Below are positions 37,449-46,621 of a stretch of 64,000 nucleotides of DNA, piece by piece. How positions within the stretch are numbered: position 1 is the first letter of the stretch; each line of letters opens with the position of its first letter. The notes beneath the pieces are model-generated. The model made no database searches. It was not told the origin of the DNA and worked only from the letters and a program-made list of their open reading frames with translations. Source of the DNA: Rhodanobacter glycinis (lineage in GTDB: Bacteria > Pseudomonadota > Gammaproteobacteria > Xanthomonadales > Rhodanobacteraceae); assembly GCF_900114325.1 (NCBI RefSeq), contig NZ_FOSR01000006.1, positions 124,001 to 188,000 of the forward strand. The letters run 5' to 3'. Both the position numbers and the translations under genes were made by a program.

Positions 37449-38753
37449 CTAGTTGACGGGAGGCTCGATCGCAGCCAAACGTGCCGCAAGCTCGTCCAGC
37501 CTGAGATCGTCACCCGCCCCCGGCGACGTGCGCGCTGCCAGACTGGCCTCGGGCGTGCGTCCGGCACCTGCCGATGCAGCTGCTTCCGCGGCGGCCCGGT
37601 AGGCGTCGCGGAACGGCACGCCAGCGGCGGCCTGTTCGATCGCCACGTCGGTGGCGTACATCGTCGGCTCGATCGCCGCGCGCATCACCTCGTCGTTCCA
37701 CTGCAGCCGTGCCAGCAGATCGGGCACCAGTTCCAAAGCCATCAGGCCATGACGCACACCATGGAAAATCGAGCCTTTGGAGAACTGCAGGTCGCGCTGG
37801 TAGCCGGTGGGAAGCGACAGCAATTGTTCGATCTCGGTGCGCGCCGCGGCCACGCTGGCGTAGCTGGCACGCAGCAGTTCCACCACGTCGGGGTTGCGCT
37901 TGTTCGGCATGATCGAGCTGCCGGTGGTGTATTCGGCCGGCAGCTTCACGAAGTTGAATTCGGCGGTGGTGAACAGCGACAGATCCCAGGCCAGCCGGCG
38001 CAGGTCGAGCATCGCGCTGGCAATGGCTTCCAGCACGGCCATCTCGAACTTGCCGCGCGAAAGCTGGGCGTAGATCGGCGACACCTGCATGCGCGAGAAA
38101 CCCAGTGCCTTGGTCGTGTGCTCGCGATCCAGCTTCAGGTTCACGCCATAGCCGGCTGCGGTGCCGAGCGGATTGGCATCGATCAGGGCCAGCGTCTGGC
38201 GCGCACGCAGGGCGTTGTCGATGAAACCCTCGGCGAAGCCGGCAAACCACATCGCGGTGGACGACACCACCGCGCGCTGCAAATGGGTATAGCCCGGCAG
38301 CGGCACGGCCGGCTGCGCGGCGCGCTCCAGGCAGACCTCGGCGATCGCGCGGCAATGCGTTTCCAGTGCAACCAGCTTGTCCTTCAGCCACAGGCGCGTG
38401 GCGACCAGCACCTGGTCGTTGCGGCTGCGCCCGGTGTGCACGCGACGACCGGCGTCACCCAGCCGTTCGGTCAGCCGTGCCTCGATGGCGGAATGACCAT
38501 CCTCGTAGCGATCATCCAGCACGAACGCGCCGCTGCGGAAATCGTCCGCCAGCGCATCCAGCTCACGCTTCAATGCCGCCGCCTCATCGATGCTGACTAC
38601 ATCGATGTGGGCCAGCCCTTCCACGTGCGCCTTGCTAGCGGTGATGTCGTGCAGGAAGAACTCGCGATCGAGCAGCACGTCGTCACCGGCAAGGAAGCGC
38701 ATGATCTTCGCATCAATCTGGATACCGGATTTTTGCCACAAAGGCTGAGTCAT
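37449..38753 (-). CDS. argH: Argininosuccinate lyase
   Basis: 434 residues of fumarase/aspartase fold. It splits argininosuccinate into arginine and fumarate, the last arginine step. Visible signatures are [16 protein letters not shown], the catalytic-His region [11 protein letters not shown] and the signature loop [19 protein letters not shown]. Length is a little under the E. coli enzyme (457). The C-terminal segment is Ala-rich. Confidence 0.96.
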
Positions 38754-38766
38754 CGTGAGAAATCCT

Positions 38767-38842
38767 GTAGGAGCGCACCCTGTGCGCGATGGCTTTGATA
38801 TGGATTTCGGGAATGCAAGTCGCGCACAGGGTGCGCTCCTAC
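38767..38842. repeat. GTAGGAGCG inverted repeat between argC and argH
   Basis: Perfect 22-bp arms at 38767-38788 and 38821-38842 begin GTAGGAGCGCACCCTGTGCG, separated by 32 nt. The right arm covers the argC stop codon. It fills nearly the whole argC-argH gap and could lower downstream expression or protect the upstream transcript. Confidence 0.85.
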
Positions 38843-39810
38843 GAGTTCACGGGAATGGCGGTGAGCTCGTCCACGCCAATCGCCCGATTGATGTTCTGCA
38901 TCGCCTGGGTGGCCGCGCCCTTCAGCAGGTTGTCCAGCGTGGCCACGATCACCACGCGTTTGCCATCGGCCGACACCGCGAAACCGCCGATTTCGGCATG
39001 GTGGCGATCGGCAATTCGACTGACCCACGGTGCTTCGTCGAGTACTTTCACCAATGGCTCGGCGCCGTAGGCCTGGCGGAAACGCGCGAGCACGTCCTCG
39101 CGCTTCACCTGGCGCACGAGATAAAGATTGGTGGTGACGGTAAGGCCACGGAAATGCGGCGCCACGTGTGGCATGAATTCCACCGGCAGGCCAAGCTGGA
39201 AGCTGGCCTCCTTTTCGTGCCCGTGGCCGGTGAGCGCATACGGCATCAAATTGTCGCGCAGCTTCTCCGGATCATTCTTGTCCGAAGGCGTGGTGCCCGC
39301 ACCGGAATAACCGGAGACGCCGAAACACACTGGCGGCGCGGCCAGCAGATCCTTCAAGGGCGCGATGGAAAGCTGCATCGCAGTGGCGTAGCAGCCGGGG
39401 TTGCTGATGTGCCTGATTCTATCGGTACCGTTGCCGCGCCACTTGTCTCGGGTCAGTTCGGGCAGGCCGTAATACCAGCTCTTGTCGAAGCGGTAATCCG
39501 CGGAAAGATCGAGGATCAGGGTCTCGGGCGCAGCGGCGTCAATCGCTTCGACGTACGGAGCCGCCTTGCCGTTGGGCAACGCCAGGATCACCACGTCGGC
39601 ACGCTTGGCCGCCACTGCGGCGGGATCAAGCGCCTCGAAGCACAGCTCGCCCACGTAAACGTCGTTGTGTTCGGCCACGCGCTGGCCATCCAGCTCGCGC
39701 GAGGAGACGAAGGTCAATTCCAGCGCGGGGTGCGCCGCAATCATGCGGATCAGCTCGGTGCCGGTATGGCCACGAGCCCCGACGATACCGATGGTTTTCT
39801 TGTTGCTCAT
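38839..39810 (-). CDS. argC: N-acetyl-gamma-glutamyl-phosphate reductase
   Basis: 323 residues from the ATG at 39810 ([17 protein letters not shown]). It reduces N-acetylglutamyl phosphate with NADPH to the semialdehyde. Shown by the Rossmann Gly motif [14 protein letters not shown], the catalytic Cys in [14 protein letters not shown] and [14 protein letters not shown]. The substrate is made by the kinase encoded two genes upstream. Its ATG overlaps the GNAT stop by 4 nt. Confidence 0.95.
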
Positions 39811-40409
39811 GCGTTGTTGCCCCGTTCCAGCTTGAAGGCCAGATGCCGCTTCACGGCCGGCCATTCCGATTCGATGATGGAAAACACCACGGTATCGCGG
39901 TAACTGCCGTCAGACAGGATGCGATCGTTGCGCAGCACGCCATCCTGCTTCGCACCCAGTCGTGCAATCGCGGCGCGACTGGTCTGGTTGTGCCAATGCG
40001 TGCGCAATTCCACGCGGATGCAGTGCAACGTTTCGAAGGCATGGCGCAACAGCAGCCATTTGCATTCGGTGTTCACACCCGAGCGCTGCACGCTGGCCGC
40101 ATACCAGGTGTAACCGATTTCCACGTGGCGGTTCACCGCATCGGCGTGACACAGCCGGGTGCAACCCACGATATCGCCCGATGCCAGCGAACGCACGGCG
40201 AACGGCAGTGCACTGCCTTCGGCCTGCATCGCCAGCGCCTCTTCGACATAGGCGGCCACGCCGTCCGGCGTCGGCACGGCGGTGTACCAGAGCTTCCACA
40301 GTTCGCCGTCGGCCGTCGCACGTTGCAGCGATTCGATATGTTCGTGCGCCAGCGATTCCAGCCGCACATGGCGACCTTCGAGCACGATCGGGGAAAGGAA
40401 TTGGCTCAT
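39807..40409 (-). CDS. GNAT acetyltransferase (RimJ/RimL type) inside the arg operon
   Basis: 200 residues from the ATG at 40409 ([20 protein letters not shown]). The RimJ/RimL-type start, the central [20 protein letters not shown] and [20 protein letters not shown] are typical of amino-acid or protein N-acetyltransferases. It starts 2 nt after argB and overlaps argC by 4 nt, so it is tightly embedded in arginine synthesis. Because NAGS activity is expected from the ArgB fusion, a second acetyl-CoA-dependent step here is unexplained. Confidence 0.87.
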
Positions 40410-40411
40410 CG

Positions 40412-41728
40412 TCAATCCACCAGGGTTGCTTGCCGTTGTGCGCAATGGTCCACGCAACGGGCGATGGTTTCCATATCCTCCAGCCCGTACCAGAACACCT
40501 TCCAGCGCGGCTGCTTCATGCAGCCGTCGGACTCGGCGTAATAGAAATGATTGACCGGGTTGCCATTGCGCGAGCGCCAGAACAGCGACGGGTTCTCCTC
40601 TCGCATCACCTGCCACACCGCGCGCCCCAGGCCTTCGCCCTGCGCGTCGTCGAGCACGGCGAACTTGTCCAGGTACGGCAACTTGCCTTCCATCGTCAGG
40701 ATCATCGCGGCACGGTAGTTTTCGCTGACATAGATGCGGAAGGCCCGCGTGCGTTCGAAATAATCGTCCACCAGCCGCCGGCCGAAGCTGGACTCGATCA
40801 GCTCGCGCATGCGCGCCTTGTCCACGCCCGCCCACGACTCGAAGCGCAATACCTTCTCACCCCGTCGCACCAGCGTGCCCGAGCCCTTGTGGGTGAACAG
40901 CTCCTTGGCCAGCTCGGACGGCCGCGTGATCGAGACCGACGAGGTCAGCGGCAGACCGCTCAGCAAATCCGCGATCTGCTCGATCTTCAGGCGCATGCCG
41001 CCATTGATCCACGGCTGTGCCATCAAATGCTCGAACTCGGTACTGAGGTTGATCGAATCGATCACCTCGCCCTTGTCGTCGAGCAGACCACCGGTACCGG
41101 TCAGGAACACGATCTTGTACGGCTGCAACATGCGCACGAGCTCGTTGGCGGCGAAGTCGGCGTTGATGTTGAGGATCTGGCCCTCGTCCGTCTCGCCGAG
41201 GCTGGCGATCACCGGGATCGAATTGGCGCGCAGGCTGGCGTCGATGGCGGCCAGGTTGATGCTCTCCACCTTGCCGACCATGCCGAACGTATCGCGATCC
41301 AGATAGCTGGCCATGAACACGCCCGAGGGCACCGCGGTGGCGCGTGTATCCATCGCCTGCAGCGCCTCGACCAGCTTCAGGTTCTGCTGCTGGAACACGC
41401 GCCGCACGATGCCCAGCGCCTTCGGCGAGGTGACGCGGAGGCCGTTCACGGTCTCCTTCTCGATGCCGGCGGCGGCCAGTTCCTCGTCCAGCTGTGGACC
41501 GGCGCCGTGCAGCACGATGGGAGTCAGCCCCACCTGTTGCAGGAAGGTCAGCGACGATGTCAGATCGGCCAGTTCGTCGCGCAAGACGGCACCGCCCACC
41601 TTCACCACCGCAAAGCGTTTGGCGTCGAGTTGCGAGAACCGCTTGAGGTACTGCTGGATCTCCTTCGCACTGCCCATGCTCGACAGCAGGCGCACGATGG
41701 TTTTTCGGGTGTTGGTTTCGTTCGTCAT
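40412..41728 (-). CDS. argB: Bifunctional N-acetylglutamate kinase / N-acetylglutamate synthase
   Basis: 438 residues. The amino-acid kinase domain (about 1-285) shows [22 protein letters not shown] and [13 protein letters not shown]. The GNAT domain (about 290-438) shows [37 protein letters not shown] and [15 protein letters not shown]. This kinase-synthase architecture is the Xanthomonas-type NAGS/K, which performs the first two arginine steps and is inhibited by arginine. Nothing indicates truncation. A 112-nt gap, with a GGCACGC/GCGTGCC hairpin, separates it from argE'. Confidence 0.95.
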
Positions 41729-41840
41729 GATTCAGGCGATCTGCGCCGCAAGCCGGTTGAGGGCAAAGTGGGCAAGGTTGAAAGCGGCACGCCACGGCGC
41801 CATCGCATCACGATGCGCCCGCGTGCCGGGTGGGAAAAAC

Positions 41841-42962
41841 TCAGGCGAGGCCACGGTCGACGATCCGCTGGATGGATTCGGCATAGCGCTGCAACTGGTC
41901 GAGTTCGACCCATTCGTCGGCGGAATGCGCCTGCGCGATATCGCCGGGACCGTAGACGAAAGCGAGATGACCCGCCGCCGAGAACAGCGCGGCCTCGGTC
42001 CAGAAATCCACGGCGTTGCCCACCGGGAGTTCCAGTTCATCGGCAATGTCGCGCGCGGCCAGGCGACGCTCTTCGGCGCGCGCCGTATCTCCGGCGGGCA
42101 ACGACGGGCCACGGAAGGTTTCCTCGAAGTGCGCCGGCTCCGGTTCGGCCAGAGCGCGCAGTTGCTGCAGCAAGGTATCCGGATGCATCGTCGGCAACGG
42201 CCGCATGCCGAAACGCACTTCGGCGGTGGGCGCGATCATGTTCGCCTTGATGCCGCCTTCGATGCGGCCAATATTGAAGCGCAGCCCGGTCAGCCCACCG
42301 AAGCGTTCGTGCGATTGCGCCGCCACGAAATCCAGCGCGGCATCGCCCCAGCGCACCGCCTGGTGCAACGCGCTGTCGCCGGCTTTCTGCTCGCCCGAGG
42401 CATGGCCGGCGTGGCCGGCAAAGCGCATCAGCACCGACTGGATGCCGCGATGCGCCAGCACCACTTCGCCCTTGGTCGGCTCGGCCACGATCACCGCTTG
42501 ATAGCACCCGTCTCTCTTCGGGAGATGGGGAAAAGCATGCAAAAAGCCAGCGATGCAACGCGGATCGTTGGCTTCTTCGTCGGTGGAAAACAGCAGCGCC
42601 ATGTCGCCGTCACTGGCGTTCGCCACCGCCAGCAAGGCCGCAGCCGCGCCCTTGATGTCGCAGGCGCCCAGGCCGATCGCATGCTTGTCCGTCACCCGCA
42701 ACGTGTGTGGATCGGCCGTCCACGCCGGCGAATCCGGCACCGTGTCCAGATGCACGTTGAACAGGTAACGCGGCGTGCCGCGCACCGCGTGCAGCGACAC
42801 GGCGCCGGCGCCGAAGTCGGTCACCGTCACCGCGAAGCCGGGCAACTGCGCACGCAGATAGTCGAAGATGCCGCCGGTATCGATCGCGCGCGGTGGATTG
42901 CGCGTGTCGAAACCAACCAGCGCACGCAAGTGATCCAGCGTGGCGTCGAGCAACGCGCTCAT
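41841..42962 (-). CDS. argE: Acetylornithine/acetylcitrulline deacetylase
   Basis: 373 residues of M20 metallopeptidase. Metal ligands are seen in LFNVHLDTVPDS, GLGACDIKGAAAALL, LFSTDEEAND and the C-terminal VYGPGDIAQAHSADEW. The dimerisation domain begins near VLAHRGIQSVLMRF. In bacteria that use N-acetylornithine carbamoyltransferase, this enzyme removes acetate from N-acetylcitrulline, and the argF' gene of this operon implies the same here. The ATG shares one base with the argG stop (TGATG). Confidence 0.94.
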   Translation of the reverse strand: MSALLDATLDHLRALVGFDTRNPPRAIDTGGIFDYLRAQLPGFAVTVTDFGAGAVSLHAVRGTPRYLFNVHLDTVPDSPAWTADPHTLRVTDKHAIGLGACDIKGAAAALLAVANASDGDMALLFSTDEEANDPRCIAGFLHAFPHLPKRDGCYQAVIVAEPTKGEVVLAHRGIQSVLMRFAGHAGHASGEQKAGDSALHQAVRWGDAALDFVAAQSHERFGGLTGLRFNIGRIEGGIKANMIAPTAEVRFGMRPLPTMHPDTLLQQLRALAEPEPAHFEETFRGPSLPAGDTARAEERRLAARDIADELELPVGNAVDFWTEAALFSAAGHLAFVYGPGDIAQAHSADEWVELDQLQRYAESIQRIVDRGLA

Positions 42963-44152
42963 CAGCGGTTGACCTCTGCCCACAACGTGCTGCTCATGCC
43001 GAACAGCTTGATGAAGCCCTCGGCTTCCTCCACGCCCCAGTCCGCCGATTGCGCGTAGGTGGCGCCCTTGGCGTTGAGGATGTGCTTCGACTCGACCGCC
43101 ACGGCGTTGACCACGCCACCCTGCGTCTCCAGCGTGACTTCGCCGTTGACGGTGGACTGGCTGGACGCGAGGAACGCTTCCAGGTCGGTCTTCAGCGGGT
43201 CGTGGAAGAAGCCTTCGTAGACGATTTCCACCCACTTGCGCGCCACCTCGGGCTTGAAGCGGTTCTGCTGCTTGCTGAGCACGGCCTCTTCCAGCGCACG
43301 GTGTGCGGTGAGCAGGCTGATCAGGCCCGGGGCTTCATAGATGATGCGACCCTTCAGGCCGATGGTGGTATCGCCGGTGTAGACGCCACGACCCACGCCG
43401 TACGGCGCGAACAGGCCGTTCAACCGAGCCAGCATGGTGTGGCCCGCGAGCTTCTCGCCATCCAGCGTGACCGCCTCGCCGTTGACGAAACCGATCTTCA
43501 CCCGCAACGGTTTGGACGGCCATTCGGCACGCGGTTTGCACCAGCCCACCGCGCCTTCGCCCGGCGCCTGCCACTTGTCGATCTCGCCGCCGGACATGGT
43601 CAGGCCAAGCAGATTCTCGTTGATGGTGTAGGCCTGCTGCTTGGCACGCACACCGAAGCCGCGTTCTTCCAGGAAGGCCTGCTCGTAGGCACGCGTCTGC
43701 GTGTGCTCCTTCTGGATCTCGCGGATCGGCGCCACGATCTGGTAATCGCCCAGCGATTTCACCGTCAGGTCGAAGCGCACCTGGTCGTTGCCCATGCCGG
43801 TGCAGCCGTGTGCGATCGCCTTGGTGCCCAGTTCGGCAGCGCGCTTGAGCGCGGCTTCGACGATCAGGTAGCGGTCGGACACCAGCAGCGGATACTGGCC
43901 CTGGTAACCCTCGCCCGCCCACACGAACGGCTTGACGAAGCCGCTCCAGATCGCCGGGCCGCCGTCCACGGTGACGTGACTGGCCACGCCCAGTTCCTTC
44001 GCGCGGTTTTCGATGAAAGCGCGCTCCTCCGCGTCCACGCCGCCGGTGTCGGCGAACACGGTATGCACGGCCCAACCGCGCTCCTTCAGGTAGGGCACGC
44101 AGAAACTGGTGTCGAGGCCGCCGGAAAAGGCGAGAACGATATCTTTGCTCAT
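42962..44152 (-). CDS. argG: Argininosuccinate synthase
   Basis: 396 residues, the standard type-I length. It joins citrulline and aspartate using ATP. The PP-loop is [16 protein letters not shown], followed by [14 protein letters not shown] and [15 protein letters not shown]. It follows osmC by 32 nt and precedes argE' with a 1-nt overlap, in step with the pathway order. Confidence 0.97.
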
Positions 44153-44184
44153 GGCTTGCTTGGGTCCTGGAAAAGTGGCGGTGA

Positions 44185-44658
44185 TCAGGGGGATTCAACA
44201 ACGATGCGCGGTTCGCAGCGCACCGGGAAACTCACGGAGTTGGCGATGAAGCAGGCGTGGTGCGCGGTTTCGTGGGCGACCTCGGCCTTGGCCGGATCGC
44301 TGGCGGCGCTGATGGTGACCACCGGGCGCAACACGACTTCGGTGAACCGACCGGCATCGCCCTCGGTCTGCATCGTGCCTTCGGCGGTGTCGACGTAGGC
44401 CGTGACCACCACGCCCGCCACGGTGGCCATGTGCAGATAGGACAGCATGTGGCAACTCGACAGCGCGGCCAGCAGCATGTCCTCGGGATTGTGCCGCGAG
44501 GCATCGCCATGGAAGCTGGGGTCGGACGAGCCGGCCAGCGCCGGTTTGCCGGCAATGCGGATATCGTGGTCGCGGCGGTAGGCACGGTAACCGGACGTGC
44601 CGCTGCCCTGGTTGCCGGTCCACTCCACGTCGACGCGATAGTGGTGCGCATGGTTCAT
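44185..44658 (-). CDS. OsmC-family protein
   Basis: 157 residues. The OsmC/Ohr fold shows the reactive Cys in [13 protein letters not shown] and the second Cys in [14 protein letters not shown]. Family members reduce organic hydroperoxides with these two Cys. The ATG overlaps paiB by 4 nt. A role in arginine synthesis is not obvious; operon position may reflect co-expression only. Confidence 0.9.
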
Positions 44659-45278
44659 GGCTTCGATGTCTCCTGCGTGGCCATCCAGTCCGCGAGTTCC
44701 GCATCACCGTCGCCATCGCGGCGGCGCAACCCGGCGATCACGCCGAGGCGATTGCGTTCGGGGTGGTTCTGGCTCAGCTTGAACTTGCCCTCGATGCGCT
44801 CGATGGCGATCTCGATGCCGACGATGGCACGCAGCGACTTCTCGATGTGGTCTTCCGGCGCATCACTGACATGCCATGGCGCGGGCTCGCTGGCTTCATG
44901 ACGATCGGTGAGCCGCTCCAGCAAGGCACGCAGCCACGTCGCATCCTCGATCACCTTGAGCCGGCCATGCACGTGCACCACCGCGTAGTTCCAGGTGGGC
45001 ACTTCACGTCCGGTCTCGTGCTTGGTCAGGTACCAGTTCGGACTGACATAGCCGTGCGGCCCGCGAAAGATCACCAGCACCGGCGCGCCATCCAGCGCCG
45101 CCATCTCGTTGCCGCGGGCCACGTGGCCATGCAGCACCGCGCCCACCCGCTCGAACGGCAGGTGGTTGGCCGTCAGTTCTCCGTCGGCATGCGTTACCAC
45201 GGTGGCAAACGGATAGGCGTCAACCAGCCCGTGCAAGGCCTCGCTCCGCGTCTCCTGGTAGTGCCTGGGCATGTACAT
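44655..45278 (-). CDS. PaiB-family FMN-binding negative regulator
   Basis: 207 residues. The split-barrel FMN-binding fold has the usual N-terminus MPRHYQETR, NHLPFERVG, GHVARGNEM and the YVSPNWYLTKHETGREVPTWN core. In Bacillus PaiB acts with the PaiA acetyltransferase in polyamine-linked regulation. It begins 10 nt after argF' ends. Function here is not established. Confidence 0.9.
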   Translation of the reverse strand: MYMPRHYQETRSEALHGLVDAYPFATVVTHADGELTANHLPFERVGAVLHGHVARGNEMAALDGAPVLVIFRGPHGYVSPNWYLTKHETGREVPTWNYAVVHVHGRLKVIEDATWLRALLERLTDRHEASEPAPWHVSDAPEDHIEKSLRAIVGIEIAIERIEGKFKLSQNHPERNRLGVIAGLRRRDGDGDAELADWMATQETSKP

Positions 45279-45288
45279 GGCGTGGCGC

Positions 45289-46296
45289 TCAGCCCTGTCC
45301 GGCCAGCAACGCCATCACCGCCTTCTGCACGTGCAGGCGGTTCTCGGCTTCGTCGATGGCGATGCAGGCGGGCGAGTCCATCACCGCATCGGTCGCCTTG
45401 ATGTTCCGGCGCAACGGCAGGCAGTGGCTGAACAGGCCGTGGTCGGTCAGCGCCATCTTCGCCTCGTCCACGATGAAGTGCTTGTGCGCATCGCGGATCG
45501 GCTTTTCCTGCTCCCATTTGCCGAAGTACGGCAACGCGCCCCAGCTCTTGGCGTACACCACATGGGCACCCGAGTAGGCTTCCTCGATGTCGTGACTGAC
45601 CTTCAGCGAGCCGCCGTTCTGCTCGGCATTCAGACGGCCAAACGCCATGTAGCGCTCATCCAGCACATAATCCGGCGTGGGGCACAGCAGGGTCACGTCC
45701 ATGCCCATCTTGGTGGCGATCAGCAGGGCCGAGTTGGCCACCGCCGTGTTCAGCGGCTTGGGATGGTAGGTCCAGGTCAGCACGTATTTCTTGTTCTGCA
45801 GGCTGCCCAGGTGTTCCTTCATCGCCAGCGCGTGGGCCAGCTCCTGGCAGGGATGGGTGATCGTCTCCATGTTGATCACCGGCACCGTGGCATATTTCGC
45901 GAACGACTTGATGACCGTGTCCTGCCGATCCACCGCCCAGTCCTGGAATTTCGGAAATGCGCGCACCGCGATCAGGTCGACATAGCGCGACAACACCCGC
46001 GCCACCTCCGCGACGTGCTCCTCGGTGTCGCCATCCATCACGGTGCCCACCTCGAACTCGATCGGCCATGCATCCTTGCCGGGCGACAGCACCACGGCAT
46101 GACCGCCAAGCTGGAACGTGCCCAGTTCGAAGCTGGTGCGGGTGCGCATCGACGGATTGAAGAACAGCAACGCGACGGACTTGCCGGCCAGCTGCGCGCC
46201 GGCGGGCGAACGCTTGAACGCCACAGCCTGCTCCAGCAGCGCATCGATCTCGGCGCGGCTGTAATCCTGGGTGGTGATGAAATGGCGGAGGGTCAT
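45289..46296 (-). CDS. argF': N-acetylornithine carbamoyltransferase
   Basis: 335 residues from the ATG at 46296 (MTLRHFITTQDY); a start 11 codons upstream is less like the family. The carbamoyl-phosphate loop is FFNPSMRTRTSFELG. Glu92 in MDGDTEEHVAEV is the residue that directs the Xanthomonas enzyme to N-acetyl substrates. HPCQELAHALA and FSHCLPLRRNIKATDAVMD (with the Lys that is carboxylated in the X. campestris enzyme) are kept. It carbamoylates acetylornithine to acetylcitrulline and is the first structural gene after a probable attenuator. Confidence 0.96.
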   Translation of the reverse strand: MTLRHFITTQDYSRAEIDALLEQAVAFKRSPAGAQLAGKSVALLFFNPSMRTRTSFELGTFQLGGHAVVLSPGKDAWPIEFEVGTVMDGDTEEHVAEVARVLSRYVDLIAVRAFPKFQDWAVDRQDTVIKSFAKYATVPVINMETITHPCQELAHALAMKEHLGSLQNKKYVLTWTYHPKPLNTAVANSALLIATKMGMDVTLLCPTPDYVLDERYMAFGRLNAEQNGGSLKVSHDIEEAYSGAHVVYAKSWGALPYFGKWEQEKPIRDAHKHFIVDEAKMALTDHGLFSHCLPLRRNIKATDAVMDSPACIAIDEAENRLHVQKAVMALLAGQG

Positions 46297-46373: not shown

Positions 46374-46403
46374 AAAAAAACCCGGCGCAGGGGCCGGGTT
46401 TTT
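46374..46403 (-). terminator. Intrinsic terminator in the argF' leader (attenuator)
   Basis: An 11-bp stem (46376-46386 with 46393-46403; AAAAACCCGGC/GCCGGGTTTTT) is followed on the minus strand by seven U. It lies 77 nt upstream of argF' and 33 nt after an Arg-rich ORF. Its 5' arm ACCCGGCCC (46399-46391) is exactly complementary to GGGCCGGGT (46446-46438) at the end of that ORF, giving a possible antiterminator. Confidence 0.88.
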
Positions 46404-46435
46404 GTCGTCAATGCACATGTAACGCGTGCGACAGC

Positions 46436-46540
46436 CTACCCGGCCCGTTGTCGGTCCAGCGGTCGGCGCGCACGCGACGTCATGCCAGCGGCCATGCGGG
46501 CGCTGGTGAGTACGGTAGCGGTATAGACGGCTGAAGACAT
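46436..46540 (-). CDS. Candidate arginine leader peptide
   Basis: 34 codons from the ATG at 46540, with GGAA about 8 nt upstream; two in-frame ATGs lie 8-10 codons earlier. The product is MSSAVYTATVLTSARMAAGM followed by TSRARRPLDRQRAG. Six codons are Arg, five of them in the last 12, and three of those are CGA or CGG, unusual where CGC dominates. Stalling at residues 23-26 would leave the antiterminator segment free; reading to the stop would cover it. That is the logic of classical attenuation. I know of no described arginine leader like this; the peptide may still be a chance ORF. Confidence 0.5.
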   Translation of the reverse strand: MSSAVYTATVLTSARMAAGMTSRARRPLDRQRAG

Positions 46541-46593
46541 GGTGGTTCCGGACAGGCGAGGCTGCATCATGACGGGAATTTCGCTGCCTTGCA

Positions 46594-46621
46594 ACAATAA
46601 TCGGCAAGGCCCGCCAGCCAA
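46594..46621 (-). promoter_or_regulatory. Candidate promoter for the argF' leader
   Basis: On the minus strand TTGGCT (46621-46616), a 16-nt spacer and TATTGT (46599-46594) form a moderate sigma-70-like pair. It would start RNA near 46587, about 47 nt before the leader ATG, giving a leader RNA of about 210 nt to the terminator. Confidence 0.35.

Follow-up and report, generated by a model that had tools for sequence, protein, structure and literature searches.

An arginine-codon leader ORF with an invariant peptide core is a probable ribosome-mediated attenuator of the argF' operon in Rhodanobacter and its relatives

Introduction

Arginine is the textbook case of control by a repressor, and the presumed purpose of ArgR repression is arginine feedback on the biosynthetic operon. 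The trp, his, thr, ilv, leu and phe leaders follow another design, in which a short ORF contains codons for the end product, an antiterminator and a terminator are alternative structures, and a ribosome at the stop codon masks the antiterminator. Here we describe a leader upstream of argF' that resembles these amino-acid operon leaders in its short ORF, its alternative structures and the placement of its stop codon. It differs from them in using arginine, in that no protector hairpin was found and, in the four families designated f1-f4, in having three constrained codons within a conserved peptide where classical attenuators have a codon run. Its presumed purpose is the same as that of ArgR repression, but the ArgR C-terminal domain was not found in 59 of the 61 genomes sampled. 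Like TnaC, SecM and the fungal arginine attenuator peptide, whose sequences we take to be unrelated to its core, the argF' leader has, close to where stalling is presumed, amino acids whose conservation exceeds what codon or RNA constraint would account for; arrest itself is a prediction.

Two described systems come close. In the accessible sections of the report on Salmonella orf34/speF, a 34-codon leader ORF with an Arg pair positions the ribosome according to arginine and thereby alters the downstream RNA (PMC6386406). Unlike the argF' leader, orf34 acts on ornithine decarboxylase by way of Rho, RNA structure and RNase G and not through an intrinsic terminator (PMC6386406, same sections), and its conserved motif (HIRRT*HIMM) shares only Arg-Arg with the argF' leader core. 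Likened to our locus by description alone, the Pseudomonas aeruginosa carA leader peptide precedes an arginine-related gene and is suspected of attenuation, which the accessible part of that report ties to pyrimidines (PMC4997734). The corresponding part of a 2005 survey names His, Thr and Phe as amino acids with attenuators, and Tyr and Arg as ones with T-boxes (PMC1262725). Our literature search, whose partial coverage does not establish absence from print, found no description of the argF' leader system.

Results

A short ORF and a putative RNA switch precede argF'

We analyzed a 64,000-nucleotide stretch of the Rhodanobacter glycinis genome (the window; coordinates are positions within it, and all features described lie on its minus strand). 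The argF' gene, which encodes N-acetylornithine carbamoyltransferase, occupies 45289..46296 (NF003384, E 3.5e-182). Its listed ORF begins 11 codons upstream of the likely start (46329-46296). Because most relatives align from about residue 4-13 of this longer ORF, we place the start at ATG 46296 (MTLRHF..), which is probably the true one. Together with the genes at 37449..45278 (two extra genes, argG, argE, an argB-type kinase, a gene that we read as GNAT-like, argC and argH), argF' presumably forms one operon. The two extra genes, one of them OsmC-like, lie at 44185-45278 between argF' and argG and would be controlled by the attenuator together with argF' if the operon is transcribed as a unit.

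Between argF' and an upstream ORF with glycine-zipper-type matches (47250-46657) sits a leader ORF of 34 codons, read from the sequence as running from ATG 46540 to TAG 46436 (46436..46540; MSSAVYTATVLTSARMAAGMTSRARRPLDRQRAG). Its six Arg codons are codons 15, 23, 25, 26, 30 and 32; as the preliminary description had stated, five of the six fall within codons 23-34 and three of those five are CGA or CGG. Codons 17-27 (46460..46492) encode a peptide core, AAGMTSRARRP, which the codon table and change counts given below identify as invariant, and within which Arg26 is a CGA codon (46463..46465).

The end of this ORF can pair with what follows it. Segment 2, the 5' half of the putative antiterminator (GGGCCGGGT, 46438..46446), overlaps the first base of the leader stop codon and is an exact 9-nt complement (46446-46438) of ACCCGGCCC within the 5' arm of the terminator. 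This arm (segment 3, 46393..46401), which the 3' half of the antiterminator overlaps, pairs with the 3' arm (segment 4, 46378..46386) to form the terminator stem (46401-46393 with 46386-46378), and a run of seven T follows at 46374..46380. The order first proposed for this locus (34-codon ORF, stop codon, terminator with seven U, then argF') is thus borne out, as is the exact complementarity between the end of the ORF and the 5' arm.

The promoter proposed in the preliminary description (TTGGCT/TATTGT) fared less well; by eye it is absent from that place in the ten other genomes of the genus that were inspected, and the conserved promoter-like pair is TTGCAA-N17-CATGAT instead. In the window this promoter-like pair comprises a -35-like hexamer, TTGCAA (46589..46594), and, after a 17-nt spacer, a -10-like hexamer, CATGAT (46566..46571), from which we infer a transcript start near 46559. 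A TTGC..-N16-18-CATGAT-like site, a pattern picked after viewing the sequences, lies no more than 45 nt from the ATG in 116 of the 143 family members described below, compared with 2.1% of letter shuffles; a stricter consensus scan returned no promoter at the window leader. The distance from the -10 element to the ATG is about 25 nt in most leaders of the window's family. An in-frame upstream ATG at 46567 was dropped as a start of the ORF since it falls inside the -10 element.

The leader is widespread in four families of the order

In the family to which the window's genome belongs, argF' was present in 143/147 genomes from 26 genera. One upstream region was taken from each of the 143 argF'-bearing genomes, and the leader core occurred exactly once in every one of them, with an ATG or GTG 16 codons before the core in 128/143. 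A scan of 398 genomes of the order with a degenerate core pattern (GGNATGACNTCNCGNGCNCGNCG) found it in 255, once each; all matches were in f1-f4 and none in f5-f12, and the reversed pattern had no match among the rows listed. Across the class, 3/274 genomes matched, all three within the order, and the other 271, from elsewhere in the class, gave no match. The eight f2 genomes in which the exact pattern is missing have close variants of it (e.g., SSMTSRARRP, GMASRARRP); the f4 genomes without it are L182, L184 and L191, the first of which has the variant MTSRARRT.

A tighter pattern, run over the GTDB set, matched at least 119 stretches. Among the matches listed are 80 named loci, selected by a pattern that fixes Arg at codon 26 and leaves its third base free; of these, 76 lie before argF', 3 extend past the end of the stored stretch and 1, in L214 ('Deltaproteobacteria'), is a chance match without argF'. 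Named hosts among the matches listed include Rhodanobacter, Dyella, Frateuria, Xanthomonas, Stenotrophomonas, Lysobacter, Luteimonas and Dokdonella. A conserved short Arg-rich ORF was therefore found where alignment of Rhodanobacteraceae and Xanthomonadaceae genomes had been suggested to look for one: upstream of argF' in 143/143 family regions and in four families of the order.

Selection acts on the peptide core and on its arginine codons

For each codon position (1/2/3) we counted the minimum number of changes needed within genera. For codons 17-27 the counts were 6/3/89, and for the five non-Arg fourfold codons among them (A17, A18, G19, T21, A24) they were 3/0/65. Codons 2-9 (105/99/113) and the leader tail (76/71/71) showed no coding signature. 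These counts indicate that the core is held at the amino-acid level and that most of the rest of the ORF is not. A17, G19, M20, T21, S22 and A24 were identical in 143/143 family members, and Arg23, Arg25 and Arg26 were likewise present in 143/143. The core AAGMTSRARRP, its non-Arg residues included, is thus under strong amino-acid selection that plain counting of Arg codons would not require. Codons 12-16 (46507-46493, ACC AGC GCC CGC ATG) vary little even at third positions (AGC in 132/143, GCC in 138/143), a pattern that points to some constraint on RNA or codons distinct from the one on the peptide core.

The choice of Arg codons within the core is also restricted. Under the standard decoding rules, CGU, CGC and CGA are decoded by inosine-bearing tRNA-Arg, and CGG and AGR by others. 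Codons 23, 25 and 26 were CGC/CGU/CGA in 428/429 family cases and in 240/240 across the named loci among the matches listed; in the argF' genes of 101 loci, 16% of Arg codons are CGG/AGR. Arg26 was CGA in 142/143 family members and in 80/80 named loci among the matches listed, and CGA accounts for 8/207 Arg codons in ten window ORFs and for 2.9% of the 2006 Arg codons in argF' of 101 loci. At Arg23 and Arg25 the family uses CGC or CGU, the only exception among 286 codons being one CGG; the named loci among the matches listed use the same two codons apart from a single CGA. In the Salmonella his leader, according to the part of that report available, CGA is the slowest of CGC, CGU and CGA (PMC4046918).

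Arg codons outside the core are less bound. Arg15 was CGG in 19/80 named loci among the matches listed, and the codon table of the 143-member family showed no conservation of Arg30 or Arg32. The weight that had been placed on Arg30 and Arg32 is therefore not sustained; a ribosome stalled there would, moreover, partly cover the antiterminator. From codon 17 to the stop there were 18 codons in 133/143 family members, with tail sequence changing freely, and such a constant length is what a ribosome acting as a ruler would need.

The stop-codon region covaries with both arms of the terminator

A terminator was scored in 216/223 leaders (143/143 from the family and 73/80 named loci among the matches listed), and the counts in this paragraph refer to these. 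An uninterrupted complement (G-U allowed) of at least 7 between the stop-codon region and the terminator 5' arm was found in 192/216 leaders, compared with 157/4320 matched shuffles; for a complement of at least 6, the counts were 206/216 and 647/4320 matched letter shuffles. The paired segment begins 7 or 6 nt before the stop codon in 198/216. The commonest pair of segments 2 and 3 was GGCCGGGT/ACCCGGCC (100 of 216), followed by GCCGGGT/ACCCGGC (37) and GCTGGGT/ACCCAGC (25). Leaders with a CCGGC arm had GCCGG in segment 2 in 153/168 and in the 3' arm in 167/168; those with a CCAGC arm had GCTGG in segment 2 in 33/37 and in the 3' arm in 37/37; 11/216 were of neither type. A Watson-Crick run of at least 6 was formed by 183/216 own pairs and by 0.6% of 799 cross-type pairs. 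Segment 2 and both terminator arms thus covary, giving the compensatory changes in both stems that had been put forward as a check. Because many leaders are related, these counts are not of independent events. RNAalifold on 138 aligned family sequences gave the terminator only and did not recover the antiterminator, so pairs were counted on segments.

Folding of the window leader gave -29.1 kcal/mol for the antiterminator in a 73-nt stretch, -30.3 for the most stable unconstrained fold, which has the terminator, and -24.9 when segment 2 was masked. In window RNA ending before segment 4, the antiterminator had a probability of 0.99 with no ribosome, with a ribosome at codon 23 and with one at codon 26, and of 0.00 with a ribosome at the stop. 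The corresponding means were 0.74 (none), 0.78 (codon 23), 0.84 (codon 25/26) and 0.00 (stop) for the family (n=137), and 0.59, 0.65, 0.79 (codon 26) and 0.00 for the named loci among the matches listed (n=66); these samples comprise 137/143 family and 66/80 listed named leaders, the remainder having a pair shorter than 6 or having been skipped. In the full RNA at folding equilibrium the terminator was favored in every state (family means 0.88-0.95), and switching must therefore be kinetic and depend on timing.

The position of segment 2 suits such a switch. The edge of a ribosome usually lies about 12-13 nt past the first base in the A site. Segment 2 begins 19-20 nt past the first base of codon 26 and should thus lie beyond the ribosome edge when that codon is in the A site. 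Arg30 and Arg32 of the window would be poor control codons, since a ribosome whose A site holds Arg30 would cover a large part of segment 2. The earlier proposal that stalling at codons 23-26 would free the antiterminator, and that a ribosome at the stop would mask it, is in this way supported by sequence and fold modeling.

We saw no protector hairpin, and the antiterminator forms before segment 4 even without a ribosome. Two candidates were dropped, namely pairing of the core stretch CGCGUGCG with GCACGCG past the stop and an inner hairpin in the spacer, because the spacer from the stop to the terminator is no more stably folded than its shuffles (mean z 0.01 for the family, n=138, and -0.26 for the listed named loci, n=68). 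Protector hairpins are common but not universal among ribosome-mediated attenuators, and we therefore do not treat one as defining.

The Xanthomonas form of the leader is the RNA filed as Xoo5

The Rfam family RF02242 (Xoo5) matches the leader before argF' in two Xanthomonas loci at 146.9 bits (L221, X. vasicola) and 103.7 bits (L211). Both pass the RF02242 cut-off, and L281 and L204 fall below it. The window scores 30.0 bits (E 1.6e-4) against a gathering cut-off of 50 bits and is thus a relative of Xoo5 and not a member by the Rfam rule; an Rfam scan of the window gave no family above its own cut-off. The accessible text of the original report treats sRNA-Xoo5 as a newly found sRNA of 124 nt, with its 5' end determined by RACE, and locates it between PXO_00354 and the N-acetylornithine carbamoyltransferase gene PXO_00353 (PMC3039613). 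In the same text, Northern blots showed bands of about 130 and 100 nt, both early in growth and the short one alone later (PMC3039613). That text also reports a link of sRNA-Xoo1 to ArgF' and ArgG protein levels (PMC3039613), but this relates to the thiC region and not to the leader locus. Xoo5 and our leader share the same genomic place and the same core ORF, and in Xanthomonas they are the same RNA. Where Xoo5 was filed as a non-coding sRNA without a stated function, we read it as a coding attenuator with relatives over the order.

In L221 and L211 the Xoo5 match covers the leader ORF, and its 5' end, placed by the Rfam match, lies 2 nt before the ATG and is the 8th or 7th base after a -10-like GAGGAT. 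Transcription start and a short leader RNA therefore have experimental support through the mapping of Xoo5, as placed by that match. This support does not extend to a 3' end at the terminator: the Xoo5 3' end, known from cDNA clones, is placed 20 nt past the stop, with 5-7 nt left before the stem of the terminator, and a terminated leader RNA is predicted to be 160-163 nt long, larger than either Northern band (about 130 and 100 nt). A 5' end 2 nt before the ATG (L221 6410-6533, L211 6527-6650) implies a nearly leaderless mRNA, and the Xanthomonas leader ORF would thus be translated without a Shine-Dalgarno site.

Other families carry different Arg-cluster leaders

Across the order, argF' was present in 358/398 genomes. 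By eye, 15 of 18 argF' loci inspected in f5-f11 have a different short ORF with an Arg cluster (e.g., LLRRRSRRP, VVRRARRR, LRRRRTC). The Arg motifs, also picked by eye, use CGC/CGU/CGA in 72/76 codons (the raw count of 81/85 includes three codons from L182 of f4 and six from L196, counted twice), compared with CGG/AGR in 62/174 Arg codons of argF' at the 12 countable loci. By script, the same 18 loci had an antiterminator run of at least 7 in 9 cases, a shorter run in 5 and no scored terminator in 4. Among the 14 leaders with a scored terminator, 7 have a run reached by at most 5/200 shuffles (including the f9 pair TGCCAGGTT/AACCTGGCA), 2 are weak (17 and 31 of 200 shuffles) and 5 are at chance. 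The predicted RNA switch is thus well supported in only half of these distant leaders, which slightly reduced our confidence in the attenuator reading.

Neither a leader ORF nor a scored terminator was visible before argF' in L186 (f6), L197 and L201 (f10), and no ArgR domain was found in the sampled genomes of those families either. In L196 (f8) two tandem copies of the Arg-cluster leader GRRARRTRRPLLAG precede argF', separated by a stretch that contains an N; this could be either a real duplication or an assembly fault.

The preliminary description had named ArgR as the usual controller of arginine synthesis. In a search that detects the ArgR C-terminal domain (PF02863) in 8/14 control genomes, this domain was absent in 59/61 genomes sampled, the window's genome included, and the expectation does not hold for these. 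It was present in 2/61, both in f12 and both without argF' at the threshold used.

Discussion

Our comparisons indicate that the leader is very probably a ribosome-mediated transcription attenuator of the argF' arginine operon. It shows a leader ORF under selection in its core, fixed Arg control codons, mutually exclusive and covarying stems, and a stop codon placed within the antiterminator. Of the preliminary description, the central observation and the arrangement of ORF, antiterminator and terminator stood; the promoter, the importance given to Arg30 and Arg32, and the expected role of ArgR did not. Four features became visible by comparison alone: non-Arg residues that do not vary, a CGA codon that is likewise invariant, the identity with Xoo5 and the Arg-cluster leaders of other families.

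We infer stalling, arginine sensing, the direction of control and promoter use as follows. RNA polymerase would start just before the 34-codon ORF, with a ribosome following. When the charged tRNA-Arg that reads CGC/CGU/CGA is scarce, the ribosome would stall at codons 23-26 (CGU GCG CGC CGA) and leave free segment 2 (GGGCCGGGU), some 20 nt beyond the start of codon 26; segment 2 would then pair with newly made segment 3, the terminator would be blocked and the operon would be on. When it is plentiful, the ribosome would reach the stop inside segment 2 and cover it, segments 3 and 4 would form the terminator and the operon would be off. In our opinion, the core peptide of the f1-f4 clade may slow the ribosome at RARR and make the switch more sensitive.

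That a terminator follows an unrelated short ORF here by chance is contradicted by conservation and covariation, and we regard the probability of this as negligible. The strong purifying selection on the core would suit an ORF that encodes a functional microprotein, with a terminator that merely ends its transcript, yet codons 2-9 and the tail lack a coding signature (105/99/113 and 76/71/71), the tail length and stop position are kept, and segment 2 covaries with the terminator; we consider this reading highly improbable. Xoo5 was cloned, blotted and filed in Rfam RF02242 as an sRNA, so that the leader RNA might be taken for a trans-acting small RNA with an incidental ORF. The coding signature of the core and the stop codon inside the antiterminator speak against this, as does a position before argF' in 143/143 family regions and at 76/80 named loci among the matches listed, and we hold it to be extremely unlikely. 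An additional role in trans, alongside the attenuator, is possible.

What plain attenuation leaves unexplained is the set of invariant non-Arg residues, and in this invariant core the leader goes beyond the known kind of attenuator. If nascent-peptide arrest were the main sensor, the core would sit in the exit tunnel, perhaps with a ligand (a pathway intermediate, for example), and stall the ribosome at RARR, charging would be minor and the RNA switch would be the same. A17, G19, M20, T21, S22 and A24 are indeed fixed in 143/143 though third positions vary where possible, the five fourfold non-Arg codons (17, 18, 19, 21, 24) show 3/0/65 changes, and conservation ends after codon 27, so that a ribosome at codon 26 would have the conserved residues closest to its peptidyl-transferase center. 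The leaders of f5-f11, however, keep Arg clusters and not the core peptide (though some contain RARR), and the core is constrained in its choice of Arg codons, which a pure peptide sensor would not need; for these two reasons we give such a sensor the lower chance. Arrest induced by arginine would also switch the operon on here, which is the wrong sign for biosynthesis. We accordingly think arrest as the main sensor rather unlikely. A two-input sensor, in which the MTSRARR peptide slows or arrests the ribosome at the slow CGA and Arg-tRNA charging or a pathway intermediate releases it, has in our estimate a chance somewhat short of even. The same chance covers this reading in full, i.e., that an order without detectable ArgR controls its arginine operon by one arrest-assisted attenuator that evolved from plain Arg-cluster leaders.

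Attenuation by the argF' leader may take the place that repression by ArgR has in other bacteria. The simplest history would be that Arg-codon attenuation arrived with the loss of ArgR in the order and that the peptide core was then fixed in f1-f4. If the attenuator reading is true, the Rfam 'sRNA' family Xoo5 would gain a function, and the leaders, ranging from clusters of Arg codons to a frozen peptide core, would form a natural series for testing the passage from codon counting to nascent-peptide sensing. A widespread attenuator in genomes without detectable ArgR would then mean that, in these bacteria, a protein repressor has been exchanged for a translating ribosome.
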